From: Mongoliibacter ruber
GTDB taxonomy: Bacteria > Bacteroidota > Bacteroidia > Cytophagales > Cyclobacteriaceae
Assembly (NCBI RefSeq): GCF_003003005.1
Contig: NZ_PVTR01000002.1
Coordinates: 62,001-126,000, forward strand
Direction of reading: 5' to 3'
DNA: 64,000 bases
Below, one piece after another: positions 20,638-38,023 of this stretch. Each line of letters opens with the position of its first letter. Within the stretch, counting starts at the first letter, position 1. The notes under the pieces were generated by a model that was not told the origin of the DNA, searched no databases, and saw nothing but the letters and a program-made list of their open reading frames with translations. A program made the translations under genes and the position numbers.

Positions 20638-20660
20638 GGGGTATAGATGAGGGGCATGCA

Positions 20661-20668
20661 CAAAAATA
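20661..20668 (-). promoter_or_regulatory. Candidate -7 box (TATTTTTG) of the YCF48-repeat gene
   Basis: On the minus strand TATTTTTG fits TANNTTTG and lies about 24 bases before the ATG at 20637. It excludes the longer GTG start at 20661. Confidence 0.5.
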
Positions 20669-21719: not shown

Positions 21720-22355
21720 ATGGCAATTAACCCCAAAAAACCAACCACTTCAGCTAGTTTATCTATTAAGAACAGTGATATCCTCCGGATATACGGAAAA
21801 AAGTCTGATCCCGAAGTTTGGGAAGCTTTTGATTATGGAGATGAACTTGCTTTTAATTATTTATACAGGATCTATGTACCTGTTTTATTTCGATACGGAA
21901 CACAGCTTACACGAGATGAGGCAGTGGTTCAAGACTGTATCCAAAATATTTTTATTTCACTTAGAAGTAAACGTGGCACTCTTACAAAAGTGAATTGTAT
22001 CAAGGCTTATCTATTCAAAATCATGAATAGAGAAGTCTTAAAAAAACTATCCAAATACAAAAAACTGGAATTTAAGGATACCAATGATCTAGAAGGCAGC
22101 TTTTTGATTGAGGTTTCTTCTGAATCAAAAATGATTGAATCTGAGTGCTCTATAGAAATAAAAGAAAAATTAGAAACTGCCCTTAATCAGTTGACATCTA
22201 AACAAAGACTTGCCATACTTCTACTTTATCAGGAAGGCCTGAGCTACAAGCAAATTGCTGAGGTATTTGATTTCAATGAAGTAAAAACAGCAAGAAAATT
22301 AGTTTACAGAGCCCTTAATAGCATGAGGAATATATTGAAAGATAAAAACCAGTAA
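21720..22355 (+). CDS. ECF-type RNA polymerase sigma factor
   Basis: The 211-aa sigma-70 family protein has region 2 (about 38-105, with LTRDEAVVQDCIQNIFISL) and region 4 (about 150-205, helix-turn-helix in YKQIAEVFDFNEVKTARK). The gene order sigma, FecR-like anti-sigma, SusC with STN domain is the standard trans-envelope signalling cassette of Bacteroidota. It should therefore drive the downstream locus, and perhaps itself, when SusC is occupied. An unusual N-terminal extension of about 30 residues precedes region 2. Confidence 0.92.
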   Translation: MAINPKKPTTSASLSIKNSDILRIYGKKSDPEVWEAFDYGDELAFNYLYRIYVPVLFRYGTQLTRDEAVVQDCIQNIFISLRSKRGTLTKVNCIKAYLFKIMNREVLKKLSKYKKLEFKDTNDLEGSFLIEVSSESKMIESECSIEIKEKLETALNQLTSKQRLAILLLYQEGLSYKQIAEVFDFNEVKTARKLVYRALNSMRNILKDKNQ

Positions 22356-22424
22356 TGATTAAGAGGTTGTTTTCGGCAAAAAACCAACCATCACCTTCTT
22401 AAACATAAATTTGATAAAAATTGA

Positions 22425-23456
22425 ATGAAATACGAAGATTTTGATATTGACGACTTTCTAAAAGATGAATTTTTCATCCACTGGGTGAAAAACAGGGATG
22501 AAGACACCGTACATTTTTGGGAAAAATGGATTCAACAGCATCCAGAAAGAAAACATATTGTATTTACTGCAGCTGATATAATAAAATCTATTCACTATAA
22601 AGAAAAGATCTCCATAAGTGATCGGCTCTATCTTGAAACATTTGAGAACATTTTGCAAGCTGAAAATAATCCAGTAAACAAACCGCATAAAAAAACCTGG
22701 TGGAGTATTTTTCAAATAAGGAATGTTGCAGCTGTTTTCCTCATTACCGTCCTTATGTGGCTTTCGTGGGATATGATTTTTGTTCCCCAACAAACTGAGG
22801 AACTGAATTTACAACCAATAGAATGGGTAACTAAAATTGTTCCAGGTGGGAAAAAGTCAATCGTTACACTTTCCGACGGAACGAAAATATTTATGAATTC
22901 CAATAGTGAACTGTCTTATCCAAAAACATTTTCAGACTCATCAAGAACAGTAGCTATAAAAGGTGAAGCTTTTTTTGAGGTTCAAAAAGAGGATAGACCA
23001 TTTATAGTGAGTTCCAAGGGTTTAAAAATAAATGTATTAGGAACTTCCTTTAATGTAAAAGATTCTGAAGATGGTAAAGTTGCAGTAGCACTCATGAGTG
23101 GAAAAGTTCGCATTAATGACAATTCGGGAAATCAAGTCAATCTTCTTCCCAACGAAATGCTGGTCATAAAGGAAAATGGACCCTTTATAAAAACCGGGTT
23201 CGACTCTTTAGAAGTATTGGGCTGGAAAAATAAATACCTCATTTTTAAAAAAGAAAATTTTTACTCAGTAAAGAAAAAATTAGAAAACTGGTATGGAGTA
23301 GAAATTGAAATTAAGGGTGCAGTAAACCCAAGATGGACATATTCAGGGGTTTATCATGATGAAATGTTGGAAAACATTCTAAAAGGGATGAGCCACACAT
23401 CAGGGATTTCTTACACTATCAAAAATAAGAAAGTAATTATATCCAATATCGAATAA
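22425..23456 (+). CDS. FecR-family anti-sigma factor
   Basis: This 343-aa single-pass inner-membrane regulator has a cytoplasmic part (1-90) that should bind the ECF factor. A membrane helix lies at about residues 103-123 (AAVFLITVLMWLSW). The periplasmic FecR domain follows (TLSDGTKIFMNSNSELSYP, then GEAFFEVQ and VLGTSFNVK), and the last part resembles DUF4974, the domain that contacts the STN domain of the transporter. It lies 69 bases after the sigma gene and 149 bases before susC. Confidence 0.93.
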   Translation: MKYEDFDIDDFLKDEFFIHWVKNRDEDTVHFWEKWIQQHPERKHIVFTAADIIKSIHYKEKISISDRLYLETFENILQAENNPVNKPHKKTWWSIFQIRNVAAVFLITVLMWLSWDMIFVPQQTEELNLQPIEWVTKIVPGGKKSIVTLSDGTKIFMNSNSELSYPKTFSDSSRTVAIKGEAFFEVQKEDRPFIVSSKGLKINVLGTSFNVKDSEDGKVAVALMSGKVRINDNSGNQVNLLPNEMLVIKENGPFIKTGFDSLEVLGWKNKYLIFKKENFYSVKKKLENWYGVEIEIKGAVNPRWTYSGVYHDEMLENILKGMSHTSGISYTIKNKKVIISNIE

Positions 23457-23494
23457 ACTCATGATGATCACAAACAACACAAGTTAAAAAAAGA

Positions 23495-23529
23495 AGCAGA
23501 AAGTGTTCTGGGGGGAACAGCTTTCTGCT
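23495..23529 (+). promoter_or_regulatory. Hairpin 1 in the susC-like leader
   Basis: AGCAGAAAG (23495-23503) pairs with CTTTCTGCT (23521-23529). TGTTC (23504-23508) pairs with GAACA (23515-23519). One G is bulged and the loop is G-rich (TGGGGG). No T run follows, so it is not a standard terminator. It is 77 bases before the susC ATG. Confidence 0.65.
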
Positions 23530-23536
23530 AGAAAGT

Positions 23537-23566
23537 CCTAGGCAAAGATTGTATAAGCTGCCTAGG
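23537..23566 (+). promoter_or_regulatory. Hairpin 2 in the susC-like leader
   Basis: CCTAGGCA (23537-23544) pairs perfectly with TGCCTAGG (23559-23566) around a 14-base loop. It begins seven bases after hairpin 1 and ends 39 bases before the ATG. Together the two form a structured leader of about 70 bases. Confidence 0.6.
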
Positions 23567-23605
23567 AGACAGTTCAAGTTTCAATCACTTAAACCACTCA
23601 ATCTT

Positions 23606-26600
23606 ATGAAAAAAAAATTACTCAGACAACTTATTATGCTGTCGAAAAGATTATTGTATGGTTTCGCGATCCAGTTATTTATTTGCACAGTTCTAATTGC
23701 AAAAAATAGCAATGCGCAAAGGAAGACCATCGAAGACGTCAAAGTAACGCTCAATTTGAAGGATCAGCCCATAAAAAGAGCTTTCCAAGAAATTGAAAAC
23801 AACACCGAATTTAGATTTACTTACAATGATAATTTGGTCGATGTAAGCGGTCAGGTTACTATTGAAACAAAAAACAAACCAGTAATCGAAGTTTTGGAAT
23901 CAATTTCCAAGCAAAGCTCACTGCAATTTGTCCAAATCAACGACAATATCCATGTCAAACCAGCTTTCAATATTACTAAAAAAGAAAGGGTTCTTGTCAT
24001 GGAGGAAGCCGATTATAAGGTAATCACGGGGGTCGTACGAGATGATGAAGGAGAGCCACTTCCAGGCGTTTCTATATTAATCGAAGGCACAACCAACGGT
24101 ACCATTACAGATATTGATGGCAATTTTTCCATTGATGCCGCAGAAGGGTCTATACTAGCGTTTTCTTTTATTGGATTTGAAACTAAAAAAATCCAAGTCT
24201 CAAGCAGCAATGTATATGATGTAGTTTTAAGTACTGATCTAAAATCTTTGGGTGAGGTAATAGTAGTGGGTTATGGAGAGCAAAGAAAAGAAACAATAAC
24301 AGGATCTGTTGCCACTGTAAAAGGAAATGAACTTGTAAAATCTCCAGCCATGAACCTTTCAAATTCTATAGCTGGTAGAATGGCAGGGGTAGTTGCTGTC
24401 AATAGAAGTGGTGAGCCGGGGTTTGATGGTTCAGGTATACGAATTAGAGGCTCTAACACCCTTGGAAACAATGATGCATTAATAGTTATAGATGGGATTC
24501 CCGCCAGAGCTGGAGGTATTGAGAGATTAAATCCAAACGATATCGAATCCATTTCAGTACTTAAAGATGCAGCGGCTGCAATTTATGGAGCGAGGGCAGC
24601 TAATGGTGTTATTTTGGTCACAACAAAAAGAGGCCAATCCGGAAAGCCCGAACTCTCATATCAATTTAACCAAGGGTTTGCACAACCTACAGTAATCCCA
24701 GCGTTGGCTAATGCTGCACAATACGGTGAGATGTTAAATGACCTGAGTGTATATGAACTACCTGTTAATGAGTGGCAAGCGGCCACAAATGCTTTCCGAA
24801 ATGAGAGTGTCTACACACGTCCAAATGGTCAAGTCAGAACTGCTCCTTTTAGTCAAGAAGCTTTAGCCATGCATAGAGCTGGGACCGATCCTTGGAATTA
24901 TCCAGATACAGATTGGTTTGCAGCCACATTGAAACCGTGGTCCCCTCAGGTTAGACACAACTTGCAGCTGAATGGAGGAAATGATAACATCAAATATTTA
25001 GCATCTATGGGCTATCAAAATCAGGATGCTTATTACAGAAATTCAGCTACTGGCTACCAACAATATGATATGAGATTAAACTTGGATGCCAAAATCAATG
25101 AGTATGTTGATCTTCAGCTTGGTGTCTTAGGACGGCGAGAGTCCAGATTTTTCCCAACAAGGAGTGCCGGAGCAATATTCAGGATGCAAATGAGAGGTAA
25201 ACCTCATGAGCCCGCATTTTGGCCTGATGGAAGACCAGGGCCAGATATAGAAAATGGTGAAAACCCAGTAGTAATCACTACGAATGCAACAGGATATGAC
25301 CGTGACACAAGAGATTATTTCCAAACCAATGGAGCTTTGAATATCAAAATCCCTTGGATAGACGGGTTGAAGTTTACAGGTACTGCAGCGGTGGATAATT
25401 TGAGTAGGTTTGTAAAAAGGTGGGAAACACCTTGGACGCTGTATCAAAGAGGAAGTGGTTTTGAAGCTGATGGAACTACACCTATTCTAGTACCTACCGA
25501 AAGAGGGCCAGCTGAACCTAGGCTAACCCAATCCAATAATAACCAATTGAATATACTACTCGGTGGTGTATTCTCATATGATAAACAATTTGGAGACCAC
25601 GGACTGCAAGTACTCGCAGGAACTAACAAGGAAACCGTAAAAGGTGATGACTTTTGGGCCTATAGGAGATTTTTCATTTCAACTGCCATAGATCAGATGT
25701 TCGCCGGAGGTGATGATGAAAAGAATAATGGGGGTGCGGCATTTGAACAAGCTCGTCTCAATTATTTTGGAAGAGTAGCCTATAATTTTAAAGAAAAATA
25801 TCTTTTGGAATTCCTTTGGAGGTATGACGCATCCTACATATTTCCAAAAGAAACAAGGTATGGATTCTTCCCTGGTGTAATGGCAGGATGGGTTATTTCG
25901 GAAGAAAATTTCTGGAAAAATAATTTCAGCAATTTTGATTTCTTTAAAGTAAGAGGTTCGTGGGGACAGATGGGTAATGACCAAATCTTTTACGATGGCG
26001 TTTTCCAACAATACCAATTCCTATCTACTTACGGATTTAGAAGCCACATTTTGGAAGGTCAGGAAGCAAAGACATTATTTGAGACCAGAGTGCCAAATGA
26101 TATGATTACATGGGAAGTAGCTAATAACTCAAACCTCGGAGTAGAAGGCCAATTATTCCAGGGTAAAGTATTCTTCGAATTTGATTTGTTCTACAATAAA
26201 AGGACTAATATTCTTTGGCGAAAAAATGCCTCTGTCCCTCAAAGTACAGGTCTTTCATCTCTATTACCCGCAGAAAATATAGGTGAAGTAGAGAATAAAG
26301 GTTTTGATATCAATTTGGGATATAGGGGTCAAAAAGGAGAATTCAGATACGCTGTGAGTGTAAATGGTGGGTATGCAAAAAATAAAATCCTTTTCTGGGA
26401 TGAGCCTCCAGGTGCTCCAGATTGGCAAAGATCTACTGGAATGCCAATGGGTTCTCCAGGTCCAATATATGTATATGATGGTGTTTTCAAAGATCAACAA
26501 GATATTGATAGCAACACTCTTGATTATTCTGCAATTACCAATGAGCTTCGCCCTGGCGATATGAAATTCAAGGACGTGGACGGTGATGGAGCGATAACCC

Positions 26601-27100
26601 CTCTTGATAGAATACGATTAGACAGAAATAATATCCCAAGATTCCAGGGAGGCATGAATTTCAATGCAAGTTGGAAAAACATCGATGTCTCGATATTATT
26701 TCAAGGAGCTGCAGGCGCTATGGCTTTAGTTAGTGCAGGAGAATCAGGAAACATCGGTAACTACCTTTTGGATTTCTATGAAAATCGATGGACTATAGAC
26801 AACCCAAGCAGTGTACATCCAAGAATTGCCAACAGAAGTGACCAATACTTTTCTTCTGGCAACACTTACTGGTATAGAAGCACTGATTACATAAGGCTTA
26901 AAAATATGGAAATAGGCTATACCCTTCCTGAAACTCTTACTACCAGACTGGGGATGAGCAATGTCAGGCTTTACATGAATGGGTTGAATTTATTGACCTG
27001 GGATAAACTTAAAGTATATGACCCTGAGTCAGATAACTCAACAGGTCAATATTACCCTCAAGCAAGAGTTATTAATGGTGGTTTTTCTGTGACATTTTAA
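23606..27100 (+). CDS. SusC/RagA-type TonB-dependent outer-membrane transporter with STN signalling domain
   Basis: This 1164-aa outer-membrane barrel moves large ligands inward using TonB energy. After a long signal peptide (to about residue 38, SNAQ) come an STN secretin/TonB domain (about 45-115) and a carboxypeptidase-regulatory-like beta domain (about 138-215, GVVRDDEGEPLPGVSI). The plug follows (about 220-345, including LKDAAAAIYGARAANGVIL), then the barrel ending at GGFSVTF. The STN domain plus the upstream sigma/FecR pair marks it as a signalling transporter. The frame stays open to a TTG at 23549, but the ATG at 23606 starts the signal peptide. The substrate is unknown. Confidence 0.95.
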   Translation: MKKKLLRQLIMLSKRLLYGFAIQLFICTVLIAKNSNAQRKTIEDVKVTLNLKDQPIKRAFQEIENNTEFRFTYNDNLVDVSGQVTIETKNKPVIEVLESISKQSSLQFVQINDNIHVKPAFNITKKERVLVMEEADYKVITGVVRDDEGEPLPGVSILIEGTTNGTITDIDGNFSIDAAEGSILAFSFIGFETKKIQVSSSNVYDVVLSTDLKSLGEVIVVGYGEQRKETITGSVATVKGNELVKSPAMNLSNSIAGRMAGVVAVNRSGEPGFDGSGIRIRGSNTLGNNDALIVIDGIPARAGGIERLNPNDIESISVLKDAAAAIYGARAANGVILVTTKRGQSGKPELSYQFNQGFAQPTVIPALANAAQYGEMLNDLSVYELPVNEWQAATNAFRNESVYTRPNGQVRTAPFSQEALAMHRAGTDPWNYPDTDWFAATLKPWSPQVRHNLQLNGGNDNIKYLASMGYQNQDAYYRNSATGYQQYDMRLNLDAKINEYVDLQLGVLGRRESRFFPTRSAGAIFRMQMRGKPHEPAFWPDGRPGPDIENGENPVVITTNATGYDRDTRDYFQTNGALNIKIPWIDGLKFTGTAAVDNLSRFVKRWETPWTLYQRGSGFEADGTTPILVPTERGPAEPRLTQSNNNQLNILLGGVFSYDKQFGDHGLQVLAGTNKETVKGDDFWAYRRFFISTAIDQMFAGGDDEKNNGGAAFEQARLNYFGRVAYNFKEKYLLEFLWRYDASYIFPKETRYGFFPGVMAGWVISEENFWKNNFSNFDFFKVRGSWGQMGNDQIFYDGVFQQYQFLSTYGFRSHILEGQEAKTLFETRVPNDMITWEVANNSNLGVEGQLFQGKVFFEFDLFYNKRTNILWRKNASVPQSTGLSSLLPAENIGEVENKGFDINLGYRGQKGEFRYAVSVNGGYAKNKILFWDEPPGAPDWQRSTGMPMGSPGPIYVYDGVFKDQQDIDSNTLDYSAITNELRPGDMKFKDVDGDGAITPLDRIRLDRNNIPRFQGGMNFNASWKNIDVSILFQGAAGAMALVSAGESGNIGNYLLDFYENRWTIDNPSSVHPRIANRSDQYFSSGNTYWYRSTDYIRLKNMEIGYTLPETLTTRLGMSNVRLYMNGLNLLTWDKLKVYDPESDNSTGQYYPQARVINGGFSVTF

Positions 27101-27102
27101 TT

Positions 27103-28971
27103 ATGAACATTACCATGAAAAAATTTAATATTAAAGCAATACTTATCTCCTTGATTTCATTGTCAATATGGAGTTGCAATGATGATTTTCTGAATACTGT
27201 TCCACTCGGAGAAGTGTCCGAATCAGCAGTTTGGACTGATGCTGGATTGGCTGAGGCTTTCGTAACAGACATTTACGGAGGACTTGTCTGGGGAGGCTTT
27301 AATGAACAAGCCTTGGCGTCTTTGACTGATGAGGCTATCTTCACTCACCCGGGACGGAATATAAACACGGTAACAGAAGCAAGATCAAATCCCCAAAACC
27401 CAGGCTGGATTGATGATTCTAGGGGCTGGGCCAACCTTTACAACAGGTTACGTGCAGCAAATATTGCTATAGAGAATCTATCAGACCCAAAATTTGATAA
27501 CACATCAGGAATTGCAGATAGACTTTTGGGGGAAGCGATATTCATGAGGGCATATTTTCACCATCAGTTGTTGAGGAATTATGGATCATTTCCAATAGCT
27601 GACGGAATGACTACTTTAAGCGATGATACTTTTGAAAAGAAAAGAAACACTTTTGAAGAATGTGTTGATTTCATTATCAACGATTTAGACAGATCTGCTC
27701 AATTACTTGAAGGTTTAAATCTTCAACGAGGTCGTGCAAATGAGGTCGCAGCATTGGCCCTTAAATCTAGGGTATTACTCTACGCTGCAAGCGATCTTCA
27801 TGATATGCCGACTGCATCAGCAAAATCTTCTGTGATTTCTGGCTATGAAAACAAAGAGTTGATCGGTTATACTTCCGGAAACAGAACTGAAAGATGGCAA
27901 AAAGCAAAAATTGCAGCTAAGGCAGCCATGGATCTTCAATCAGGTAATATGCTCAATCTTTCTGAACCTTTGGACCCTCAGGCAGCTACTGATATCTATA
28001 TCAACAATTCTATTTCTAGGAATGGTGGAGAAAATGAGATGATTTTCGGAAGATATTATTTAAACTCCAAACCTGAATGGGGTGGACGTCAAGGCTTGTT
28101 TAACGGTCCCAATGGATACAACAATTGGGCTGGAAATACTCCAGTTTCTCTGCTGGTAGATGATTATGAGATGATGGATGGAAGCAAATTTGATTGGAAT
28201 AATCCTGAAATTGCTGCTAAGCCCTACGAAAACCGTGACCCAAGGTTTTATGGTACTTTTCTATATGAAGGAGCCCAATGGAAGCCTAGATCCCCCGCCA
28301 ATCAAGCAAGGGATCCGCTTGGCCAAATTCAAACTGGCAGCTACGAAGTTACCAATGCTACAGGTCAAAAAGTCACTCATTTCGGTTTGGATACGAGAAA
28401 CAGCCCAATAGAAGATTGGAACGGCTCGTACACTGGATATTATGTGCGGAAATTTGTAGAACCTGACCCATCACACGTGGATCAAAATACATGGCAGGAG
28501 ATTCCTTGGCCAGCAATTAGGGTCACAGAAGTTGTACTCAATTATGTAGAAGCTTGTATCGAATTAGGTGAATATGAGGAAGCAAAATCATATTTAAATA
28601 GAATCAGATATAGAGCGGGTATGCCAGCCATTACTTCTACAGGAGATCAGTTAATCGCAGATTATCGAAATGAAAGAAGGGTCGAAATGGCTTTTGAAGA
28701 GCAGCGCTATTATGATACCAGAAGATGGATGATTGCTCCGGAGACCTTGGGAAGGCAAGCCAATGGTATTCAGATAAGGGGTACCTTAAAGCCGGGCAAG
28801 TCCAATGTGACATATAGATATGATACCGAATTGTACGATTATTCCTATTCTTTAATTGATATAGATCCTGGAAAAGAAAATAGATTATGGCTTGATAAAA
28901 TGTATTGGATGCCAATAAGTTTTGATGAAATGAACAGGAATTCTCTTCTGATTCAAAATCCCGGTTACTAA
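27103..28971 (+). CDS. SusD/RagB-type substrate-binding lipoprotein
   Basis: This surface lipoprotein caps the SusC barrel and binds the ligand. It begins three bases after the susC stop. A second ATG at 27115 gives a cleaner MKKFN signal peptide, so the start may be 12 bases later. The lipobox Cys is in LSIWSC (residue 25). TPR-like helices and the C-terminal SusD signature (EACIELGEYEEAKSYLNRIR, then DYRNERRVEMAFEEQRYYD) are clear. Length (622 aa) is at the upper end of the family. It ends before a strong hairpin. Confidence 0.95.
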   Translation: MNITMKKFNIKAILISLISLSIWSCNDDFLNTVPLGEVSESAVWTDAGLAEAFVTDIYGGLVWGGFNEQALASLTDEAIFTHPGRNINTVTEARSNPQNPGWIDDSRGWANLYNRLRAANIAIENLSDPKFDNTSGIADRLLGEAIFMRAYFHHQLLRNYGSFPIADGMTTLSDDTFEKKRNTFEECVDFIINDLDRSAQLLEGLNLQRGRANEVAALALKSRVLLYAASDLHDMPTASAKSSVISGYENKELIGYTSGNRTERWQKAKIAAKAAMDLQSGNMLNLSEPLDPQAATDIYINNSISRNGGENEMIFGRYYLNSKPEWGGRQGLFNGPNGYNNWAGNTPVSLLVDDYEMMDGSKFDWNNPEIAAKPYENRDPRFYGTFLYEGAQWKPRSPANQARDPLGQIQTGSYEVTNATGQKVTHFGLDTRNSPIEDWNGSYTGYYVRKFVEPDPSHVDQNTWQEIPWPAIRVTEVVLNYVEACIELGEYEEAKSYLNRIRYRAGMPAITSTGDQLIADYRNERRVEMAFEEQRYYDTRRWMIAPETLGRQANGIQIRGTLKPGKSNVTYRYDTELYDYSYSLIDIDPGKENRLWLDKMYWMPISFDEMNRNSLLIQNPGY

Positions 28972-28992
28972 TTATTAATTGATCTGGAAATC

Positions 28993-29045
28993 AAGCAGCT
29001 TAGCAGACATCTTCGGGTGAATCAGCTAAGTTGCTTCTTTTTGTT
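28993..29045 (+). terminator. Terminator or attenuator between susD and the FG-GAP gene
   Basis: AAGCAGCTTAGC (28993-29004) pairs with GCTAAGTTGCTT (29025-29036) with one G-T pair, and CTTTTTGTTT follows. The next gene starts only 23 bases later, so this may cut down rather than abolish read-through. Confidence 0.75.
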
Positions 29046-29067
29046 TAACGCTACCAAATTCCGCACC

Positions 29068-32000
29068 ATGTACAGATCATTGTACCAATTACTTCTGATT
29101 ACCATTGTCCCTCTTTTGTTGCTATTTTCTTGTTCAAACACTAGCAATGAACCATTGGATGGATCAAGCAGGGAGAATTTCAGACTTTTCGATTTATTGG
29201 AGCCTGATGAATCTGGAGTGACTTTTAGAAATCAACTCACGGAAGGACCAAATACAAATGTATTGATGTACGAGTATTTTTATAATGGCGGTGGTGTCGC
29301 TATTGGCGATCTTAACAATGATGGCCTAGATGATATATATTTTTCCGGAAACATGGTATCGAATGCTTTGTATTTAAACAAAGGAAATTTAAAGTTTGAA
29401 GACATAACAGCAAAAGCTGGAGTACAAGGCAGAGAAGGTCCATGGACAACAGGCGTTTCCATGGCCGATGTGAATGGTGATGGTTGGCTTGATATCTATG
29501 TGTGTTATTCAGGCAATTTACCATCTGACAAAAGGCGAAACCAATTGTTTATTCATCAAGGTCTAAATGATGAAGGTATTCCTTTTTTCAAAGAAAAGGC
29601 TGTAGAATTTGGTCTTGACATAGACTCATATTCTACTCAAGCCTTATTTTTTGATTATGATTTGGATGGGGATTTGGATATGTTTTTACTAAACCACAAT
29701 CCCAAATCAATACCTGTATTAGACGAATCAAGTACCAAAGATTTATTGAGTAAAAAGGATGCTTCTGGATCTCAGTTATTCAGAAACGATAACGGGAAAT
29801 TCGTTGAGGTGACAGAGGAAGCTGGTATTCAGAACTCAGCACTTTCATACGGCTTAGGCATAGGAGCTGCTGATCTAAATGGAAATGGATATCCAGATTT
29901 ATATGTAAGTAATGATTACACCGCCACTGACTATCTGTATTTCAATAATGGGAACGGAACTTTTTCAGAAGGGAGCAAAACTTCATTAGGTCATATTTCT
30001 CAATTCTCTATGGGAAATGAACTGGCAGACTTTAATAATGATGGGTTCATTGATATTTTCACACTCGACATGTTGCCCGAGGATAATAAACGTCAAAAAT
30101 TACTGATGAGTCCTGACAATTATGAAAAACACCAATTTATGGTCAATGCAGGGCTACACTATCAATATATGCGCAATATGCTACATCAAAACCATGGTAA
30201 TGGTAGATTTAGTGAAATAGGTCAGATTGCTGGAATTTCTAATACGGATTGGAGTTGGGCAGCATTATTTGCAGACTTTGATAATGATGGATGGAAAGAT
30301 TTGTTTGTCAGTAATGGGTATAGAAAAGACTATACAAATTTAGATTTTTTAAAGTACATGAGCGATTATGTTCAAAATCACAGAGGAAATCTAAAACGGG
30401 ATAATATTCTAGATTTAGTATCTAATATTCCTTCCTCTGATATCTCAAATTATGTTTTCCAAAATAATCAGGCAGGAGGGTTTAATAATGTAACTTCCGA
30501 ATGGGGCCTTTACAAACCCATAAATAGCAATGGAGCTGCTTACGCTGACTTAGACAATGACGGTGACTTGGAATTAATCATTAATAATATAGATGCCACT
30601 TCTTTCATCTATAAAAACAATAGCCAAGAAACCAAACAAAATAACTGGATACAAATAAAATTGAAAGGTGAAGGAAATAACCCTGATGGTATAGGTGCAA
30701 AAGTATACATCTTTAACAGCAATGGTATTCAATTACAGGAACAAATGCCTACAAGAGGTTATCAATCGAGTGTTTCTTTCAAGCTGCATTTTGGTCTTGG
30801 GAAGATTAACGAGATAGATTCTCTAATGATAATATGGCCAGGAGGAAAATATCAAAATATCAAAAAGCCGAAAATTAACTCATTGCTCATTCTGGATCAA
30901 GAAAACAGCCAAGAACAGGCGTTTTTAAGCCTTCCTAAAAATAATCAAGCTATTTTTAAAAATACAGGTGAGCTGGGAGAACCTACTTTAAAATCAGAGT
31001 TTAATGATTTTAAAAGACAACCATTGCTACCCAATCCTATTTCAGGTGACAAGATCGCATTGGTCAAAGGAGACCTAAACGGAGATGGTTTTGATGATGT
31101 GTTTGTGGGCGGCCTTTTCGGACAAGCACCGCAAATTTTGTTTCAAAACAAAAATGGTGATTTCACGCCAAAGGAACTGAGAAATTTAGAAGAAACACTT
31201 GATTATGAAGATGTCGATGCCGCCATCTTTGATGCAAACGGTAATGGTTTCTTAGATATCTACGTAGCGAGTGGAGGATATGGGAATTTCATAAAGGGTG
31301 ATAAAAGATTTCAAGATCGGCTTTACTTAAATGATGGCAATGGTGGATTTGTTTGGAGCAAGAATGCCCTGCCAGAAAATTATTACCCTACCACAACAGT
31401 AGAATTCAATGATATAAATGGAGATGGCTACCCAGATTTATTTGTTGGTTCTGGCGCAATACCAGGCCAATATCCCCATTCTGAAACTAGTGTAATTCTT
31501 ATCAATAATCAGGATGGAAGTTTTAAAGATATGACCTCTAAATATTTTCCTGAACTGGCTGATATTGGAATAGTAAAAGACGCCAAATGGGTAGACTTAA
31601 ATAGAAACGGCCAAAAAGAATTGATTCTATTGGGTGAGTGGATGCCAATCAGCATTTTTGCCTTAAAAGATGAAAAGTTTGAAAATGTCACAGATCAATA
31701 CTTTACTCACGAAACCACAGGTTGGTGGAATACAATTCAATTAGAGGAAATCGATGGGAAAATAGTACTTATCGCTGGTAATTATGGATTGAATAGCCAA
31801 ATAAAAGCGAACACGAAAGAACCAGTTGAGCTATACTTCAAAGACTTTGATGATAATGGGTCGGTAGATCCAATATTAACCACTTTTATTCAGGGCGTTT
31901 CTTACCCTTATTTAACGAGAGATGAATTTTTGGATCAATTCATATATAAGAAGTCAGGATTTACCACCTATGAGAGCTATGCAAATGCTAAGATAGAAGA

Positions 32001-32400
32001 TCTTTTTACACCGAATGAATTTAAAGACTATGGATACCGAAGAGCCTTATCCCTCGATACAAAAATGTTTGTTCTTGACAGCAAAGACATATTTGAAGAA
32101 GTTGAACTTCCTCTTGAAGTTCAATATTCCCCAGTTCACAAAATCTTGTTTATAGAACATGTCTCTAATCGATATTTACTTTTCTTTGGAAATCAAGAAA
32201 ACTCTAAATTAAGAATTGGTAAGCAAGATGCAAATCACGGAGTCTTAGTCAAATTGAATGACCTGTCAAAACCTGAATACATTCCTCAATCCATTTCTGG
32301 GTTTAATATTATTGGTGATTCTAGAAATGCATTAAGAATTGGGGAGAAAAAAATTATTGTAAATATTATGGGCCAAGCACTTCAGGTTTATGAATATTAG
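29068..32400 (+). CDS. FG-GAP/VCBS-repeat lipoprotein with internal ASPIC/UnbV domain
   Basis: A predicted lipoprotein (Cys22 in LLLLFSC) of 1110 aa. Calcium-binding FG-GAP repeats of the form DLNNDGLDD, DVNGDGWLD, DYDLDGDLD and DFNNDGFID fill the first half, building an integrin-like propeller. An ASPIC/UnbV domain lies at about 531-605 (GIGAKVYIFNSNG to IIWPGG), and a second FG-GAP block follows. This is the CRTAC1-like architecture. The frame opens upstream at 29017, but the ATG at 29068 starts the signal peptide and lies beyond the hairpin. Its 3' end overlaps the next gene by 11 bases. It probably acts as a surface binding scaffold; the ligand is unknown. Confidence 0.88.
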   Translation: MYRSLYQLLLITIVPLLLLFSCSNTSNEPLDGSSRENFRLFDLLEPDESGVTFRNQLTEGPNTNVLMYEYFYNGGGVAIGDLNNDGLDDIYFSGNMVSNALYLNKGNLKFEDITAKAGVQGREGPWTTGVSMADVNGDGWLDIYVCYSGNLPSDKRRNQLFIHQGLNDEGIPFFKEKAVEFGLDIDSYSTQALFFDYDLDGDLDMFLLNHNPKSIPVLDESSTKDLLSKKDASGSQLFRNDNGKFVEVTEEAGIQNSALSYGLGIGAADLNGNGYPDLYVSNDYTATDYLYFNNGNGTFSEGSKTSLGHISQFSMGNELADFNNDGFIDIFTLDMLPEDNKRQKLLMSPDNYEKHQFMVNAGLHYQYMRNMLHQNHGNGRFSEIGQIAGISNTDWSWAALFADFDNDGWKDLFVSNGYRKDYTNLDFLKYMSDYVQNHRGNLKRDNILDLVSNIPSSDISNYVFQNNQAGGFNNVTSEWGLYKPINSNGAAYADLDNDGDLELIINNIDATSFIYKNNSQETKQNNWIQIKLKGEGNNPDGIGAKVYIFNSNGIQLQEQMPTRGYQSSVSFKLHFGLGKINEIDSLMIIWPGGKYQNIKKPKINSLLILDQENSQEQAFLSLPKNNQAIFKNTGELGEPTLKSEFNDFKRQPLLPNPISGDKIALVKGDLNGDGFDDVFVGGLFGQAPQILFQNKNGDFTPKELRNLEETLDYEDVDAAIFDANGNGFLDIYVASGGYGNFIKGDKRFQDRLYLNDGNGGFVWSKNALPENYYPTTTVEFNDINGDGYPDLFVGSGAIPGQYPHSETSVILINNQDGSFKDMTSKYFPELADIGIVKDAKWVDLNRNGQKELILLGEWMPISIFALKDEKFENVTDQYFTHETTGWWNTIQLEEIDGKIVLIAGNYGLNSQIKANTKEPVELYFKDFDDNGSVDPILTTFIQGVSYPYLTRDEFLDQFIYKKSGFTTYESYANAKIEDLFTPNEFKDYGYRRALSLDTKMFVLDSKDIFEEVELPLEVQYSPVHKILFIEHVSNRYLLFFGNQENSKLRIGKQDANHGVLVKLNDLSKPEYIPQSISGFNIIGDSRNALRIGEKKIIVNIMGQALQVYEY

Positions 32401-33745
32401 ATTTCAAAGTCTCGGTGATTTACAAGTATTACATTTACTTACTACGATTATGGTGTGTATTTTGTCTTCATGCCATTTCGGAAAAGAGATAGAGAAATAT
32501 ACGAATAAAGATATTGCAAACATTATGGGGGAAGTCACAGCTGTTATGGTACATGATGTAACCAACCCTCCTTTGGCAAGTAGATTTTATGCATATATAA
32601 GTCTTGCAGGTCTTCAGGCATTAAATCCAGACTTTGGGCATAATATATTTGAATCTTTAGAAGAATATAATAGGCCTACAGATATATTAGACAATGAGGA
32701 TGTAAATTATCAGCTGGCAGCTATTTTATCAATGACTCAAACCGCTAAACTACTTCTACCATCCGGGGATAACTTGGAAAAGCATCTAGATAACATTAAA
32801 AAAACAGCTCTTTCAAAAGGTATCTCTAAAAAAATATTGAGATCCACTGATTCTTATAGCAAAGCTATCGCCATGCATATAATTGAGTATGCCAATACAG
32901 ATGGGTATAGACTAATTAGCTCTTTGCCCAGATACGAAACAAGTTCGCTACAAGGAAATTGGGTTGCTACCCCTCCTGGATATTTCCCCGCTGTAGAACC
33001 ATACTTTAACACTTTAAGGCCTTTTTTTCTTGACTCAGCAAATCAGTTCGTACCCGAGCTACCAGTTCCCTATGAAGAAGAAGCTGAGAGCAAATTTTTC
33101 CATTTAGCATTAGAAGTATATGACCAAAATTTATCAGAAGAACAATTGTTGATCGCTGCTTTTTGGGATTGTAACCCTTTTGCCTTAGATGAAAATGGGC
33201 ATTTGTTAATTGGGTTAAAAAAAATCTCACCTGGCGCCCATTGGATAGGAATTGCCAATATTGCATGCAAGCTTGCAAATTTAAGTTTTGAAAAAACTAT
33301 GGAAATTAATGCAGTTTTGTCCATGACGATATTTGATTCTTTTATTGCTTGTTGGGATGAAAAATATCGAAGTAACCGAGTAAGGCCTGAAATTGCAATA
33401 AGAAAACTTATTGATCCTGGTTACAAACCATTTCTACAGACACCACCATTTCCAGAATACCTAAGTGGCCATTCTGTTGTTTCAACCGCTTCAGCTGAAA
33501 TACTAACAAAATTTTTTATGGAAAATTTTGCATATGTCGATACAGTGGAGGTTGCATACGGACTGGATCCAAGAAAATTCAATTCCTTTAAAGAAGCTGC
33601 GCAAGAAGCATCGTTTTCTAGGCTCTATGGAGGAATACACTTCAAAGATGGTATCGTAGAAGGCCAAGTTCAAGGCAAAAAGATAGGTTCTAACATAGTC
33701 AATAAATTAGGTCTAACCGAAGTTATAATAGCTGACAATAATTAA
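32390..33745 (+). CDS. Vanadium-dependent haloperoxidase / PAP2-superfamily lipoprotein
   Basis: The 451-aa predicted lipoprotein (Cys28 in CILSSC) has all three parts of the vanadate/phosphate site: K325-x6-R332-P333, S359-G360-H361, and S410-R411-x5-H417 followed by Asp420. These bind vanadate in haloperoxidases and phosphate in acid phosphatases. The sequence around SGH (PEYLSGHSVVS) and the closing GIHFKDGIVEGQVQGKKIG resemble bacterial haloperoxidase-like proteins rather than lipid PAP2 phosphatases. The reaction cannot be settled from sequence. It overlaps the FG-GAP gene by 11 bases, so the two are translationally coupled. Confidence 0.87.
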   Translation: MNIRFQSLGDLQVLHLLTTIMVCILSSCHFGKEIEKYTNKDIANIMGEVTAVMVHDVTNPPLASRFYAYISLAGLQALNPDFGHNIFESLEEYNRPTDILDNEDVNYQLAAILSMTQTAKLLLPSGDNLEKHLDNIKKTALSKGISKKILRSTDSYSKAIAMHIIEYANTDGYRLISSLPRYETSSLQGNWVATPPGYFPAVEPYFNTLRPFFLDSANQFVPELPVPYEEEAESKFFHLALEVYDQNLSEEQLLIAAFWDCNPFALDENGHLLIGLKKISPGAHWIGIANIACKLANLSFEKTMEINAVLSMTIFDSFIACWDEKYRSNRVRPEIAIRKLIDPGYKPFLQTPPFPEYLSGHSVVSTASAEILTKFFMENFAYVDTVEVAYGLDPRKFNSFKEAAQEASFSRLYGGIHFKDGIVEGQVQGKKIGSNIVNKLGLTEVIIADNN

Positions 33746-33759
33746 ATTCTTCATTAAAA

Positions 33760-34731
33760 ATGGTAATCAAAAAAAGCATTTATTTATATACACTGGTACT
33801 ATCGCTTGGAACTATTGCTTTGGTGTCAGGTAAATTTATTGACTTTTCACCCTACACCCAAAAAATCCCTGATACGAGCACTTCTTTTGAATTAGTACCG
33901 ATCCCTGGTGGCAAATTCAAATTAGGCAGCACTTTAAATGAAGATGAAAGACCTGTTCATGAAGTAGAAATTTCTCCTTTTTGGATGGGAGCCCATGAAA
34001 TTACCTGGGATATTTTCGAACTTTTCTTAGATAAGGATTATGAGGAATCTATCGCAGACAAGCCGCTTCCTGAGGGTGTAGATGGACTCACAAGACCAAG
34101 TATTCCTTATTTGGACATGACTTTCGGCATGGGAAAAGAACAAATGCCAGCAATTGGAATGACTCAATATGGAGCCATTCAATTTTGTAAATGGCTTTAT
34201 TTAAAAACAGGCGTGTTTTACCGACTTCCCACTGAAGCAGAATGGGAATATGCCGCTAGGGCTGGCAGCAATGATAAATATTTCTTTGGAAATGATGAAG
34301 GTCAGTTGGAAGAATACGCTTGGTTTGCGAAAAATAGTAACCAATCCACTCATAAAGTCGGACAAAAAAAACCAAATCCTTGGGGATTATATGATATATT
34401 AGGGAACGTAATGGAGTGGACCTCTGATCAATACCTTGCAGATGCCTATGCAAACAGGGTGAAAAACAAAGACCCGAAAGTCCCAAACCAAAAATTATAT
34501 CCCTCAGTCATCAGGGGTGGTCACTATGATAGTCCCGCTGACGATTTAAGGACCGCAAAAAGATTTGCTTCCACTCCTGAATGGAAAAGAATAGATCCGC
34601 AGATCCCGAAAAGCCAGTGGTGGTTTCCAGAAGCACCATTCCTTGGAATAAGAGTGGTAAGGCCTCTAGAAACACCATCTGAGGCAGAGATCTGGGCTTA
34701 TTACAACAAAGAACCTATCGCAGATTATTAA
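33760..34731 (+). CDS. SUMF1-fold (formylglycine-generating-enzyme-like) envelope protein
   Basis: This 323-aa protein has an N-terminal hydrophobic segment (about 7-23), which suggests export. The SUMF1 fold is shown by FELVPIPGGKFKLGS, RLPTEAEWEYAARAG, NPWGLYDILGNVMEWTSD and the final RGGHYDS...FLGIRVVRP. The two copper-binding cysteines of true formylglycine-generating enzymes are missing from the C-terminal part, and no sulfatase is nearby, so it is not a sulfatase activator. The fold is also used by binding and iron-oxidase proteins. It sits 14 bases after the haloperoxidase gene and 18 before the oxidoreductase. Confidence 0.88.
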   Translation: MVIKKSIYLYTLVLSLGTIALVSGKFIDFSPYTQKIPDTSTSFELVPIPGGKFKLGSTLNEDERPVHEVEISPFWMGAHEITWDIFELFLDKDYEESIADKPLPEGVDGLTRPSIPYLDMTFGMGKEQMPAIGMTQYGAIQFCKWLYLKTGVFYRLPTEAEWEYAARAGSNDKYFFGNDEGQLEEYAWFAKNSNQSTHKVGQKKPNPWGLYDILGNVMEWTSDQYLADAYANRVKNKDPKVPNQKLYPSVIRGGHYDSPADDLRTAKRFASTPEWKRIDPQIPKSQWWFPEAPFLGIRVVRPLETPSEAEIWAYYNKEPIADY

Positions 34732-34749
34732 CTATAAACACTAAAACCC

Positions 34750-36069
34750 ATGAATAACCAAAACTCAAACCGAAGGAGGGATTTCATCAAAACCTCCGCC
34801 TTGGTCACAGGAGGTCTCATCCTCCAACCTTGGAATATCCCTGGAGCCTATGCTTCAGGCACAGATGAAATCAAACTTGCTGTCATTGGATGTGGAGGAA
34901 GAGGTACTGGCGCCGTTTTTCAAGCATTTGAAACTGGCCATAATATCAAACTTGTAGCTATGGCGGACGCTTTCCGAGACAGAATTGACAAAAGCTACGA
35001 ACCTATTTTGGATAAATATGGAGCTGACAAAGTAGATGTGCCCGAAGAGAGAAAATTTGTGGGTTTTGATGCATATAAAGAAGCCATCAAACTCGCCGAT
35101 GTAGTAATCCTTGCAGCACCTCCGGGATTCAGACCTGATCATTTTGAAGAATCTGTCAAACAGGGGAAACAGATTTTTATGGAAAAACCCGTAGCAACAG
35201 ATGCCGCTGGCATCAGGAGAGTACTCGCTGCCGCCGAAGAGGCCAAAAAGAAAAAACTCAATGTAGTCGTGGGGCTTCAAAGACACTACCAAGACAATTA
35301 CCGTGAAACCATCAAGCGTATTCATGATGGTCAAATTGGAGATATAGTAGGTGGACAGGTATACTGGAATGACGGGGGAGTATGGGTCAATGCCCGGCAA
35401 CCTGGTCAGACTGAAATGGAATACCAAATGAGGAATTGGTATTATTTCAACTGGCTTTGTGGAGACCACATCACGGAGCAGCATGTTCACAACATAGATG
35501 TAGCCAACTGGGTCAAAAAAGGCCATCCTGTGAAAGCATATGGTACAGGAGGACGTCAAGTAAGAAGAGGAAAAGACCATGGAGAGATTTTTGATCACCA
35601 TTCAGTTACTTTCACCTATGATGATGGAACTGTTATTTTTAGCGAATGCCGGCATTTTCCCGGTGCAGCCAATCGGGTCGATGAAACCTTTCAGGGAACA
35701 AATGGCTCTGTATATTTGAGTGCTGGCAACCATGGGATTCTAACTGACCGCTCAGGCAAAGAGCTCTACAACCATGACAGACAAAACAACAGGAACCCAT
35801 ACCAAGTAGAGCATGATGAACTTTGGGCAGCAATAGTAGAAGGCGAGTACAAGTTTGCTGATGCAGAAAATGCAGCTCATAGTACCATGACCTCAATTAT
35901 GGGCAGGTATGCGACATACTCAGGTAAAGTAGTCACTTGGGATGAGGCTATCAATTCAGAAGTTGATCTGATGCCAGAAACATTGGCTTGGGATGCCATG
36001 CCAAGAGTACTTCCAAATGAAGATGGCTACTACCCACATGCAATTCCTGGAAAAACTAAAGTGTTTTGA
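34750..36069 (+). CDS. Gfo/Idh/MocA-family oxidoreductase, Tat-exported
   Basis: The 439-aa NAD(P)-dependent sugar oxidoreductase carries a Tat signal (RRRDFIKT, then ALVTGGLILQPW). The Rossmann fold begins at KLAVIGCGGRGTGA (about residues 42-55). The family catalytic Lys is in FMEKPVATD. A substrate domain follows, with CGDHITEQHVHNIDVANW. Tat export implies that it folds with its cofactor in the cytoplasm and works in the periplasm, like glucose-fructose oxidoreductase. The next gene encodes a Tat-exported TIM barrel, a common partner. Confidence 0.93.
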   Translation: MNNQNSNRRRDFIKTSALVTGGLILQPWNIPGAYASGTDEIKLAVIGCGGRGTGAVFQAFETGHNIKLVAMADAFRDRIDKSYEPILDKYGADKVDVPEERKFVGFDAYKEAIKLADVVILAAPPGFRPDHFEESVKQGKQIFMEKPVATDAAGIRRVLAAAEEAKKKKLNVVVGLQRHYQDNYRETIKRIHDGQIGDIVGGQVYWNDGGVWVNARQPGQTEMEYQMRNWYYFNWLCGDHITEQHVHNIDVANWVKKGHPVKAYGTGGRQVRRGKDHGEIFDHHSVTFTYDDGTVIFSECRHFPGAANRVDETFQGTNGSVYLSAGNHGILTDRSGKELYNHDRQNNRNPYQVEHDELWAAIVEGEYKFADAENAAHSTMTSIMGRYATYSGKVVTWDEAINSEVDLMPETLAWDAMPRVLPNEDGYYPHAIPGKTKVF

Positions 36070-36071
36070 TC

Positions 36072-36992
36072 ATGAGAAGAAGAAACTTCATCAAAAATTT
36101 AAGTTTGAGTGGGGCAATAGCATCTATAGCAGGAGGCGCTTCCGTTTCAGCCTTTGCTAAAGTTAACAAACCTTCAAACACCTTTAATTTGGACTATGCT
36201 CCTCATTTCGGGATGTTTAAAGGACATGCAGGAGAAGACTTGATAGATCAGCTGAAGTTTATGGCTGACCAAGGATTTCGCTCACTGGAAGACAATGGTC
36301 TTTTAGGGCGGCCGATAGATGTGCAGAATAAGATTGGTGAAAACTTGGAAAAGTTAGGCATGAGAATGGGTGTCTTTGTAGTGGATGGAGGAGACAATTG
36401 GAAAGTCTCCCTGACCACGGGTAAAAAAGAATTCGTAGACACCTTTGTCAAAACTTGCCGTGATTCTGTAGAGGCTGCCAAAAGAGTAAATGCTAAATGG
36501 GCTACTGTGGTACCGGGTTTTTTTGAAAGAAATCTACCCATGGGAATTCAGACAGGTAATGTAATTGAAGCATTGAAACGGGGTGCAGAGGTATTTGAAC
36601 CACATGGCTTGACCATGGTTTTGGAACCTCTGAGTGATACTCCGGAACTTTTCCTCAGGTATTCCGATCAGTCATATGCTATTTGCAAAGCTGTAGGAAG
36701 TCCTTCATGCAAAATCCTCTATGACGTATACCACATGCAGAAGAATGAAGGTAACTTGATTTCTAATATGGAAAAATGCTGGAACGAAATAGCATACATA
36801 CAAATTGGGGACAATCCTGGTAGAAAAGAACCTGGAACCGGAGAAATCAATTACCTTAAGGTGTTTGAATACATCGATTCCAAGGGTTTTGAAGGGATAC
36901 TGGGTATGGAGCATGGAAACGCCCTTCCTGGAATAGATGGAGAAAAAGCACTTATTGAAGCATATCGAAAAGCAGACAGTTTTAAATCATGA
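36072..36992 (+). CDS. Hydroxypyruvate-isomerase-like TIM barrel, Tat-exported
   Basis: The protein has 306 aa and a Tat signal (RRRNFIKN, then LSLSGAIASIAGG ending SAFA). It belongs to the AP-endonuclease-2/sugar isomerase TIM-barrel group and is closest in motifs to hydroxypyruvate isomerase (QIGDNPGRKEPGTGEINY). Putative metal ligands lie in LEPLSD, YDVYHMQ, QIGDNP and GMEHGN. An in-frame TTG at 36066 overlaps the previous stop; the ATG at 36072 starts the Tat signal. Acting beside a Gfo/Idh enzyme, it may isomerise or cleave an oxidised sugar in the periplasm. This is inference. Confidence 0.9.
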   Translation: MRRRNFIKNLSLSGAIASIAGGASVSAFAKVNKPSNTFNLDYAPHFGMFKGHAGEDLIDQLKFMADQGFRSLEDNGLLGRPIDVQNKIGENLEKLGMRMGVFVVDGGDNWKVSLTTGKKEFVDTFVKTCRDSVEAAKRVNAKWATVVPGFFERNLPMGIQTGNVIEALKRGAEVFEPHGLTMVLEPLSDTPELFLRYSDQSYAICKAVGSPSCKILYDVYHMQKNEGNLISNMEKCWNEIAYIQIGDNPGRKEPGTGEINYLKVFEYIDSKGFEGILGMEHGNALPGIDGEKALIEAYRKADSFKS

Positions 36993-38023
36993 AAAATCCA
37001 GTCTTTTGGTCATTTGTTTTATTACTCTTGTTTTCCTGTGAAGAAAACAGAAGAATCAAAACTGTAGAAAAACCAAAAGGCTGGATAATTTTAGACACCC
37101 AAGTGGACGCCTCTCTTAGAGGGTTGTCTCCAATTACAGAAAATATTGTTTGGGCAAGTGGTTCCAATGGCACTTGGTTGAGAACCTTGGATGGAGGTAT
37201 CAATTGGGATTCAGGCGTCATCAATGGTTTGGATTCAGTGGATTTTAGAGATATTGAAGGAATTGATGCGTCGACAGCTATCGCCATGTCATCAGGCCAG
37301 CCAGCATTAATTTTCAAAACTTTAGACGGAGGCAAGACTTGGGAGAAAAAATTCGAGGGATCTGATAAAGATTTTTTTGATGGCATGTATTTTCAACGTA
37401 AAAAGGGAATTGTCTTGGGTGACCCTGTTGACAATTATTGGAAAATCCTGACTACAGACGACCTAGGAGAGACTTGGAAGGTAAGTGAAAGATCTCCGAA
37501 AGCTAAAGAAGGCGCTGGATCTTTTGCAGCAAGTGGATCAACGGTCATGAGGGATAATAACAGGATTTGGTTTGCTTCAGGAGGGCTGAGCAGCGATATT
37601 TTCTTCTCTGACGATGATGGCATGCATTGGAAAATAATTTCTACCCCCATTTTACAGGGAGAGCCATCTCAGGGTATATTTTCTTTTACAAAAGTGAGTG
37701 ATCAGGTTTTAATTGCGGTAGGAGGTGATTATTTAAAATCAGATTTTGCAGAAAAAAATGCCATTATCTCAACAGATGGAGGCATGAGTTGGGAATTGAT
37801 TGAAGGAAATTTACCCAAGGGCTATCGTTCTGGTATAAGCTATTTTCCACTACATCATTGGCTGATTTCAGTGGGCCCGAGTGGTTCAGATTATTCGAGA
37901 GATGGAGGCATAAATTGGGAGAAATTTTCAGAAGAAGGTTTTCACGCTATTTTTCGTGACAAAGCACAAAGCAGTATTTGGGCTTCTGGTAGCAAGGGCA
38001 GGATTGCCAAACTGGATTATTGA
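36989..38023 (+). CDS. YCF48/BNR-repeat lipoprotein
   Basis: The 344-aa lipoprotein (Cys17 in LLLFSCEE) forms one predicted beta-propeller. Recurrent blade motifs are TLDGGINWD, TLDGGKTWE, TTDDLGETW, SDDDGMHW, STDGGMSWE and SRDGGINWE. The start overlaps the previous stop (ATGA), so it is the last gene of the accessory operon. A scaffold or sugar-binding role is likely. No catalytic residues can be identified. Confidence 0.85.
   Translation: MKNPVFWSFVLLLLFSCEENRRIKTVEKPKGWIILDTQVDASLRGLSPITENIVWASGSNGTWLRTLDGGINWDSGVINGLDSVDFRDIEGIDASTAIAMSSGQPALIFKTLDGGKTWEKKFEGSDKDFFDGMYFQRKKGIVLGDPVDNYWKILTTDDLGETWKVSERSPKAKEGAGSFAASGSTVMRDNNRIWFASGGLSSDIFFSDDDGMHWKIISTPILQGEPSQGIFSFTKVSDQVLIAVGGDYLKSDFAEKNAIISTDGGMSWELIEGNLPKGYRSGISYFPLHHWLISVGPSGSDYSRDGGINWEKFSEEGFHAIFRDKAQSSIWASGSKGRIAKLDY

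Follow-up and report, generated by a model that had tools for sequence, protein, structure and literature searches.

Several described systems come close to the locus treated here. SusCD polysaccharide-utilization loci (PULs) can be controlled by an extracytoplasmic function (ECF) sigma factor, a FecR-type anti-sigma regulator, and a SusC receptor with an STN domain. In Bacteroides, glycosides are cleaved by an oxidative pathway to which the BT_2158 family belongs. The vanadium iodoperoxidase (vIPO) of Zobellia galactanivorans (PDB 4cit/4usz) represents a third type of system. At least five such vanadium haloperoxidase (VHPO) homologues were reported in an iodine-accumulating Arenibacter, and an uptake mechanism involving glucose oxidase together with haloperoxidase was proposed (PMC5064120). 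One Zobellia vIPO was reported to be upregulated with Ascophyllum (PMC9296495).

We analyzed a 64,000-nucleotide stretch of the Mongoliibacter ruber genome (contig NZ_PVTR01000002.1, positions 62,001 to 126,000 of the forward strand), hereafter the window, in which ten genes lie on the plus strand between positions 21720 and 38023. A preliminary description had read these genes as one envelope pathway. All ten open reading frames (ORFs) were confirmed at their coordinates, and the gene families, the common strand, and the short gaps and overlaps from the FG-GAP gene onward (−11, 14, 18, −4, and −4 bases) agreed with that description. Genes packed this closely on a common strand need not belong to a single pathway. 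We favor, with some confidence, a mosaic operon, in which a SusC-SusD-ASPIC-VHPO cassette stands in front of a quartet of genes for SUMF1-like, Gfo/Idh/MocA, TIM-barrel, and YCF48-like proteins, and a sigma-FecR-STN unit is placed at the 5′ end of the cassette. Gene families, module boundaries, co-inheritance, and an invariant vanadate site were directly established. Scans for sigma-70-type promoters, Bacteroidetes-type promoters, and terminators gave counts at or below chance; therefore, we infer co-transcription from the gene spacing alone.

The SusC-SusD-ASPIC-VHPO cassette

The SusC ORF (23549..27100) contains STN, CarbopepD_reg_2, and Plug domains (Pfam), and an in-frame ATG at 23606 is a more likely start than the TTG at 23549. 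Its body, comprising the plug and barrel (24011..27100), is of the VHPO-cassette type, based on TIGR04056 (904 bits), segment identities, and the approximately unbiased (AU) test. It is followed by genes for a SusD/RagB lipoprotein (27103..28971; SusD_RagB at 1.2e-58 and SusD-like_3), an FG-GAP/ASPIC repeat protein with seven FG-GAP_3 repeats and UnbV_ASPIC (29017..32400), and a VHPO (32390..33745). Lipoboxes were read from the sequence, without a predictor, in the ASPIC protein (LLFSC) and the VHPO (ILSSC).

A VHPO scan of a genome collection gave 404 relatives, the best 80 of which were used as named loci; they include Anditalea, Echinicola, Cyclobacterium, Dyadobacter, Emticicia, Pedobacter, Niastella, and Saprospiraceae bins. 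Together with the loci of a family sample of 78 genomes, they provided 86 close VHPO homologues (>380 bits), after six loci repeating a genome (L137, L138, and L153-L156) had been dropped from this set and from the cassette tree. An ASPIC gene was located within 1.5 kb upstream of 81 of these 86 genes, with a median gap of 0 bases. Three of the five misses had only 66-434 bases upstream (L051, L098, and L117), one had an ASPIC match outside the gap rule (L112), and L057 was a true miss. SusC and SusD homologues were in place at 65 of the 77 VHPO loci with more than 9 kb upstream, a retention measured in one direction, in loci chosen by VHPO; SusCD of this type without VHPO was not searched. 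Long family loci cover 82 VHPO genes, more distant members included; 64 of these have a same-strand ASPIC gene no more than 6 kb upstream, and none has one on the opposite strand. The genome of the window carries seven ASPIC domains, and all three of its VHPO genes above 350 bits adjoin at least one. With seven genes in 5 Mb, we estimated the chance of a same-strand ASPIC neighbour within 6 kb to be well under 1/100.

Co-variation was analyzed in the 64 complete cassettes only, with L149 and L150 left out as paralogues. Mantel r was 0.938 for SusC-SusD and 0.933 for ASPIC-VHPO, and ranged from 0.64 to 0.71 for the cross pairs SusC-VHPO, SusD-VHPO, and SusC-ASPIC; species history common to the loci contributes to these values, and a single genus, Dyadobacter, supplies many of the 64 cassettes. 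No observed value was reached in any of 999 permutations. The cassette thus consists of two pairs that have been partly exchanged. SusC-SusD-ASPIC-VHPO is a recurrent Bacteroidota cassette with exchangeable front and back ends, and we regard this as the durable finding of the analysis. No report of the cassette was found in a literature search, the coverage of which excluded most subscription papers. The VHPO gene, counted regardless of its neighbours, was present in 43 of 198 genomes sampled across the phylum (E 1e-60 or better).

Several variants of the arrangement were noted. The second VHPO cluster of the window's genome (L150:3718-16100) has three tandem ASPIC genes upstream and a SusD gene nearby on the same contig and strand. 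In L227:2-7328, SusC, SusD, and ASPIC are present, and the VHPO slot is filled by a distant member of the subfamily (125 bits). Two tandem VHPO genes occur in cassettes of Cyclobacterium, Lunatibacter, Lunatimonas, and Pleomorphovibrio (L043, L046, L059, L075, L083, L095, L106, L110, L053, L063, and L067).

The quartet and its joining to the cassette

The quartet begins with a SUMF1-fold protein with the FGE-sulfatase fold (33760..34731), followed by a Gfo/Idh/MocA oxidoreductase of twin-arginine translocation (Tat) type (34750..36069; GFO_IDH_MocA), a Tat-type TIM barrel resembling isomerases and epimerases, with hydroxypyruvate and 2-oxo-tetronate isomerases among its relatives (36066..36992; AP_endonuc_2), and a YCF48-like BNR lipoprotein (36989..38023; PSII_BNR and BNR), all assigned by Pfam. 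For each genome of the family sample, adjacency was scored at the best place. SUMF and Gfo were adjacent in 37 of 44 genomes and Gfo and TIM in 26 of 42. Of the 42 genomes with a TIM gene, 24 have a YCF48 match as well, and TIM and YCF48 were adjacent in 7; this count covered the best YCF48 place of all 47 genomes.

In five relatives, namely G021 of the same genus, G043, G039, G073, and G053, a DUF3365-type gene is directly followed by SUMF, Gfo, TIM, YCF48, and a HisA-like gene. No match to sigma, FecR, SusC, SusD, ASPIC, or VHPO was found between the DUF3365-type gene and SUMF in these genomes, where the gap is about 130-670 bases (about 130 in G021). In the window, the gene that we take to be of DUF3365 type (20814..21470, plus strand) is the left neighbour of the locus, lies outside it, and marks the empty site in the relatives. 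In the window as in the relatives, the quartet is followed immediately by a presumably HisA-like gene (38201-38941). The comparison with the five relatives thus splits the string in two, and SUMF-Gfo-TIM-YCF48 is, judging from sequence comparison, an older, separately conserved unit. Beside the locus, which has a YCF48 lipoprotein of its own, a 943-aa repeat protein that we named YCF48-like from its sequence is encoded on the minus strand (17830-20661).

The distances between SUMF and VHPO agree with this division. Among the 40 family genomes with both genes (strong VHPO), SUMF was within 20 kb of VHPO in 3 and apart from it in 37; the count drew on 95 strong VHPO places, part of them with short flanks only. 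SUMF lies directly downstream of VHPO in two loci of the best 80 of 404 relatives (Anditalea and Rhodonellum), and three of these loci stop less than 1 kb from VHPO. In Segetibacter (L062), SUMF and Gfo are farther from VHPO and on the opposite strand. Inspection of 19 SUMF loci revealed a DUF3365-type gene upstream in five, the cassette directly upstream in two (Anditalea and Rhodonellum), and neither in twelve. The element CATACTTTNTTTGC was found upstream of SUMF in G021, G043, and G039 and was missing in the window, G053, and G073, which is suggestive only. These data do not support one conserved pathway for the whole string. SusCD kept without the downstream genes in most relatives, which the preliminary description named as a refutation, was found with respect to the quartet; for ASPIC-VHPO, the comparison ran in one direction, in the loci chosen by VHPO.

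Twin-arginine signals are conserved at 97% or more in Gfo (R9-R10-F12-K14, 21 sequences) and TIM (R5-R6-F8, 18 sequences), which upholds the earlier recognition of two Tat-type sugar enzymes. The Gfo protein scored 45.7 bits against the BT_2158 glycoside 3-dehydrogenase family (NF058561; cut-off 750), and its structure model (pLDDT 57.4) was too poor for a fold search. TIM scored 117.4 and 114.3 bits against the NCBIfam equivalogs for hydroxypyruvate isomerase and 2-oxo-tetronate isomerase (cut-offs 353.45 and 325, respectively). Both proteins appear to resemble sugar enzymes at the family level only. The SUMF1 protein scored 144 bits against FGE-sulfatase and 80 bits against PvdO, below the cut-off of 500. 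C143 is the only cysteine among its conserved columns. S258 lies opposite what we take to be the first cysteine of formylglycine-generating enzyme (FGE), where the aligned chain has a serine, presumably a mutant, and L263 occupies the presumed position of the second cysteine. With the catalytic cysteine pair lacking at these assumed positions, we rejected the protein as an FGE.

The history of the joining was examined using two trees built with different models. The window, Anditalea, and Rhodonellum formed a supported clade in the cassette tree (32 chosen loci). In the quartet tree (21 rows), the window grouped with G021, G043, and G039, and Anditalea and Rhodonellum were outside. These trees are compatible with a single old joining and at least five losses, and also with a later transfer from a relative outside the sample, by recombination before SUMF. 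We give a little under an even chance to a recent event, in which the cassette was placed before SUMF in the lineage of the window by transfer and recombination. A recent placement is consistent with the five relatives, G021 of the same genus among them, that carry no trace of the cassette between the DUF3365-type gene and SUMF, and by our own count two gains are fewer than five losses on the quartet tree. The low GC content of sigma-FecR (33%) and ASPIC-VHPO (36%), compared with 40% in the flanks, points the same way. Against it, Anditalea and Rhodonellum share the site and the short VHPO-SUMF gap (about 14 to 75 bases). The ratios of the window-Anditalea path to the Anditalea-Rhodonellum path, summed by hand from the two differing models, were about 1.3 for the cassette and 1.5 for the quartet; these similar values indicate that Anditalea and Rhodonellum were not recent donors. 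We also considered GC content as proof of foreign origin and set it aside, as the pattern across Anditalea and Rhodonellum is mixed.

The sigma-FecR-STN front end

The front end consists of an ECF-type sigma factor (21720..22355; Sigma70_r2/r4), a FecR-type anti-sigma regulator (22425..23456; FecR and FecR_C), and the N-terminal extension of SusC, with a signal peptide and STN (23549..24010). Pfam detected the sigma, FecR, and receptor STN parts, so the signalling components named in the preliminary description are in place. The sigma factor was 45-52% identical to the products of sigma genes at seven other SusCD loci. The best FecR matches in the 78 family genomes (45-50% identity) came from six genomes (G034, G018, G070, G067, G053, and G047), in which they lie at seven other SusCD loci, and SusC residues 20-239 had their best matches at the same seven loci, where a related sigma gene was also present.

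The relationships of SusC change along its length. Residues 20-60 were 53-75% identical to SusC of the seven other loci, and residues 61-140 had almost no aligned counterpart in SusC of Anditalea and Rhodonellum (0-10% or less covered). From residue 251, the body was 79-94% identical, by segment, to that of Anditalea and Rhodonellum and 22-50% identical to the bodies at the seven other loci. The AU test rejected grouping of the body with the SusCs of those loci (p 0.001). SusC of Anditalea and Rhodonellum lacks STN, and no sigma or FecR match was found within 4.5-4.7 kb upstream of it, nor within 10 kb more for Anditalea. These sequence relationships suggest that the cassette acquired sigma, FecR, and the STN extension of SusC by grafting. 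The carboxypeptidase-regulatory-like domain was also considered as part of the graft, as it grouped with the other SusCs in a quick tree, and this was dropped when the AU test gave no support. The domain (residues 156-238), at the start of the SusC body, could be assigned to neither source (AU p 0.76 and 0.60); therefore, a graft is supported for sigma, FecR, and STN only.

Pfam analysis covered nine proteins encoded after SusD at three of the seven other loci and identified GH88, a GH20 domain, malate synthase, an FAD oxidase, and DUF4861; among the remainder, one match was below cut-off and three proteins had no match. Thus, the signalling kin precede different cargo. Among 65 cassette SusCs, 13 had the length of the STN form (1160 aa or more) and 52 had 1111 aa or fewer, length being a proxy for the presence of STN.

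Predicted function and comparison with known systems

The VHPO scored 26.0 bits against Pfam PAP2, just under the cut-off of 27.2, and matched PDB 4cit, annotated as a vanadium-dependent haloperoxidase, with phmmer at 2e-102. With its structure model (pLDDT 86.5), Foldseek also gave 4cit as the top match (TM 0.81/0.89, 39% identical). The matches at ranks 1-18 were all vanadium haloperoxidases or their homologues, and acid phosphatases appeared from rank 19. K325, R332, S359, H361, R411, and H417 were present in 171 of 171 sequences and G360 in 170; we take this K, R, S-G-H, R, and H set to be the vanadate ligands. The earlier recognition of a vanadate-site enzyme is well founded, the site being invariant apart from one glycine. 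W322 and F354 were invariant in the same 171 sequences, and we assume that they correspond to pocket residues of fungal chloroperoxidase. By sequence and fold, the protein is of the Zobellia iodoperoxidase type, with predicted oxidation of halide by H2O2.

Signalling, read-through, and catalysis in the mosaic operon would run as follows. SusCD would bind and import a ligand, and the STN domain would report its occupancy to FecR, so that the sigma factor is freed and the operon induced. At the envelope, the VHPO lipoprotein, paired with the ASPIC lipoprotein, may use vanadate and H2O2 to oxidise a halide, iodide or bromide first; alternatively, it could oxidise an organic compound linked to the ligand that SusCD imports. 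The quartet starts 14 bases after the end of the VHPO gene and would be read through from the same promoter. The role of the VHPO is thus probably ligand-induced peroxide/halide oxidation at the envelope.

Several observations weigh against the mosaic operon and its predicted chemistry. No recognised source of H2O2 was found within the locus. ASPIC was not nearby for 16 of the 82 VHPO genes of the long family loci (two more were at contig ends), nor for a fourth, distant VHPO match of the window's genome (71.5 bits). The shared species history behind the Mantel values, the SusC stretch of neither source, and the mixed GC evidence, with low-GC ASPIC and VHPO genes also in Anditalea and not in Rhodonellum, count here as well. 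Six ASPIC-less VHPO loci were scanned; four had sugar-related neighbours (ROK kinases in two, GH65 in one, and SusCD in one) and two had housekeeping genes, and with such neighbours a sugar-linked or phosphatase role is conceivable.

Tentatively, the cassette could represent a Bacteroidota-wide class of envelope loci in which vanadate-dependent peroxide/halide chemistry takes the place of carbohydrate hydrolases. The VHPO would have a dedicated partner in the ASPIC lipoprotein, as a scaffold or substrate presenter, and the transporter would import the oxidised product or halide. Regulatory front ends would be swapped between such loci and other SusCD loci at a point close to the 5′ end of SusC. 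If ASPIC-VHPO is a haloperoxidase unit with its own SusCD, a halide-peroxide system would exist at the envelope of many Bacteroidota. This would bear on halogen cycling, the use of SusCD outside glycan hydrolysis, and the movement of signalling units between SusCD loci.

A live rival, which we consider rather unlikely, is that the VHPO acts in vivo as a phosphatase, its pocket binding phosphate and stripping it from sugar or lipid phosphates, and SusCD importing the product. The near-threshold PAP2 match, the acid phosphatases further down the fold ranking, and the ROK and GH65 neighbours of ASPIC-less homologues are consistent with such a role, and the title of PDB 3bb0 describes a vanadium apo-chloroperoxidase able to dephosphorylate. 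The 18 higher fold matches, headed by the iodoperoxidase, argue for a haloperoxidase instead, as do the invariant W322 and F354 if they are pocket residues as we assume. The ASPIC-less genes lie beside ROK kinases in L174:1237-7359 and L176:2429-3667 and beside a GH65 gene in L195:2399-4444. Gene sizes around the ASPIC-less VHPO are similar in L175, L184, and L188, and these loci and L174 share a 775-aa gene near VHPO, which had no Pfam match in the one scanned.

Less probable still is a single integrated envelope pathway: a glycoside taken up through SusCD would be oxidised and isomerised or cleaved by the Tat-type Gfo and TIM proteins, and the VHPO would share this substrate. The tight gene spacing, the same joining in Anditalea and Rhodonellum, which share a cassette clade with the window, and the sugar context of four of the six scanned ASPIC-less VHPO genes would suit it. 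The separation of SUMF and VHPO in 37 of 40 family genomes, the lack of a joined locus beyond Anditalea and Rhodonellum among the best 80 of 404 relatives, and the low Gfo score in the glycoside 3-dehydrogenase family all speak against it. An assembly chimera, at the edges of the locus or within a conserved stretch of SusC, is suggested by the mosaic SusC. Judged from the assembly, it is very improbable, as the frames are intact, both flanks are ordered as in relatives, and two further genomes have the same junction of VHPO and SUMF.

The mosaic operon resembles known systems in its parts. The SUMF1 protein shares the FGE-sulfatase fold with FGE and PvdO, differing from FGE in the two cysteines, at the positions we assumed, and from PvdO in its score. 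As in the oxidative glycoside cleavage of Bacteroides, a Gfo/Idh/MocA gene adjoins a TIM-barrel gene; however, the window Gfo is far below the BT_2158 family cut-off (45.7 vs 750 bits) and no DUF1080 match was found in the ten genes (Pfam), so the analogy drawn in the preliminary description is weak. The locus shares with ECF/FecR/STN-controlled SusCD PULs the usual order of sigma, FecR, STN, SusC, and SusD, with SusC and SusD adjacent. It differs in that no glycoside hydrolase, lyase, or sulfatase model was above cut-off in the ten genes (Pfam and NCBIfam; the YCF48 protein had one weak NCBIfam glycosylhydrolase match, 37.5 bits vs a cut-off of 175), the cargo being ASPIC and a haloperoxidase, and in that the control unit is absent from the examined stretch of the two nearest cassettes. 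That this is not a standard PUL, as first proposed, agrees with these results. Finally, the VHPO has the motifs W-D-E-K-Y-R-S-N, P-P-F-P-E-Y-x-S-G-H, and R-x-Y-G-G-I-H in common with the Z. galactanivorans vIPO, but it is a lipobox protein encoded in a SusCD operon and is known here from its gene and structure model.

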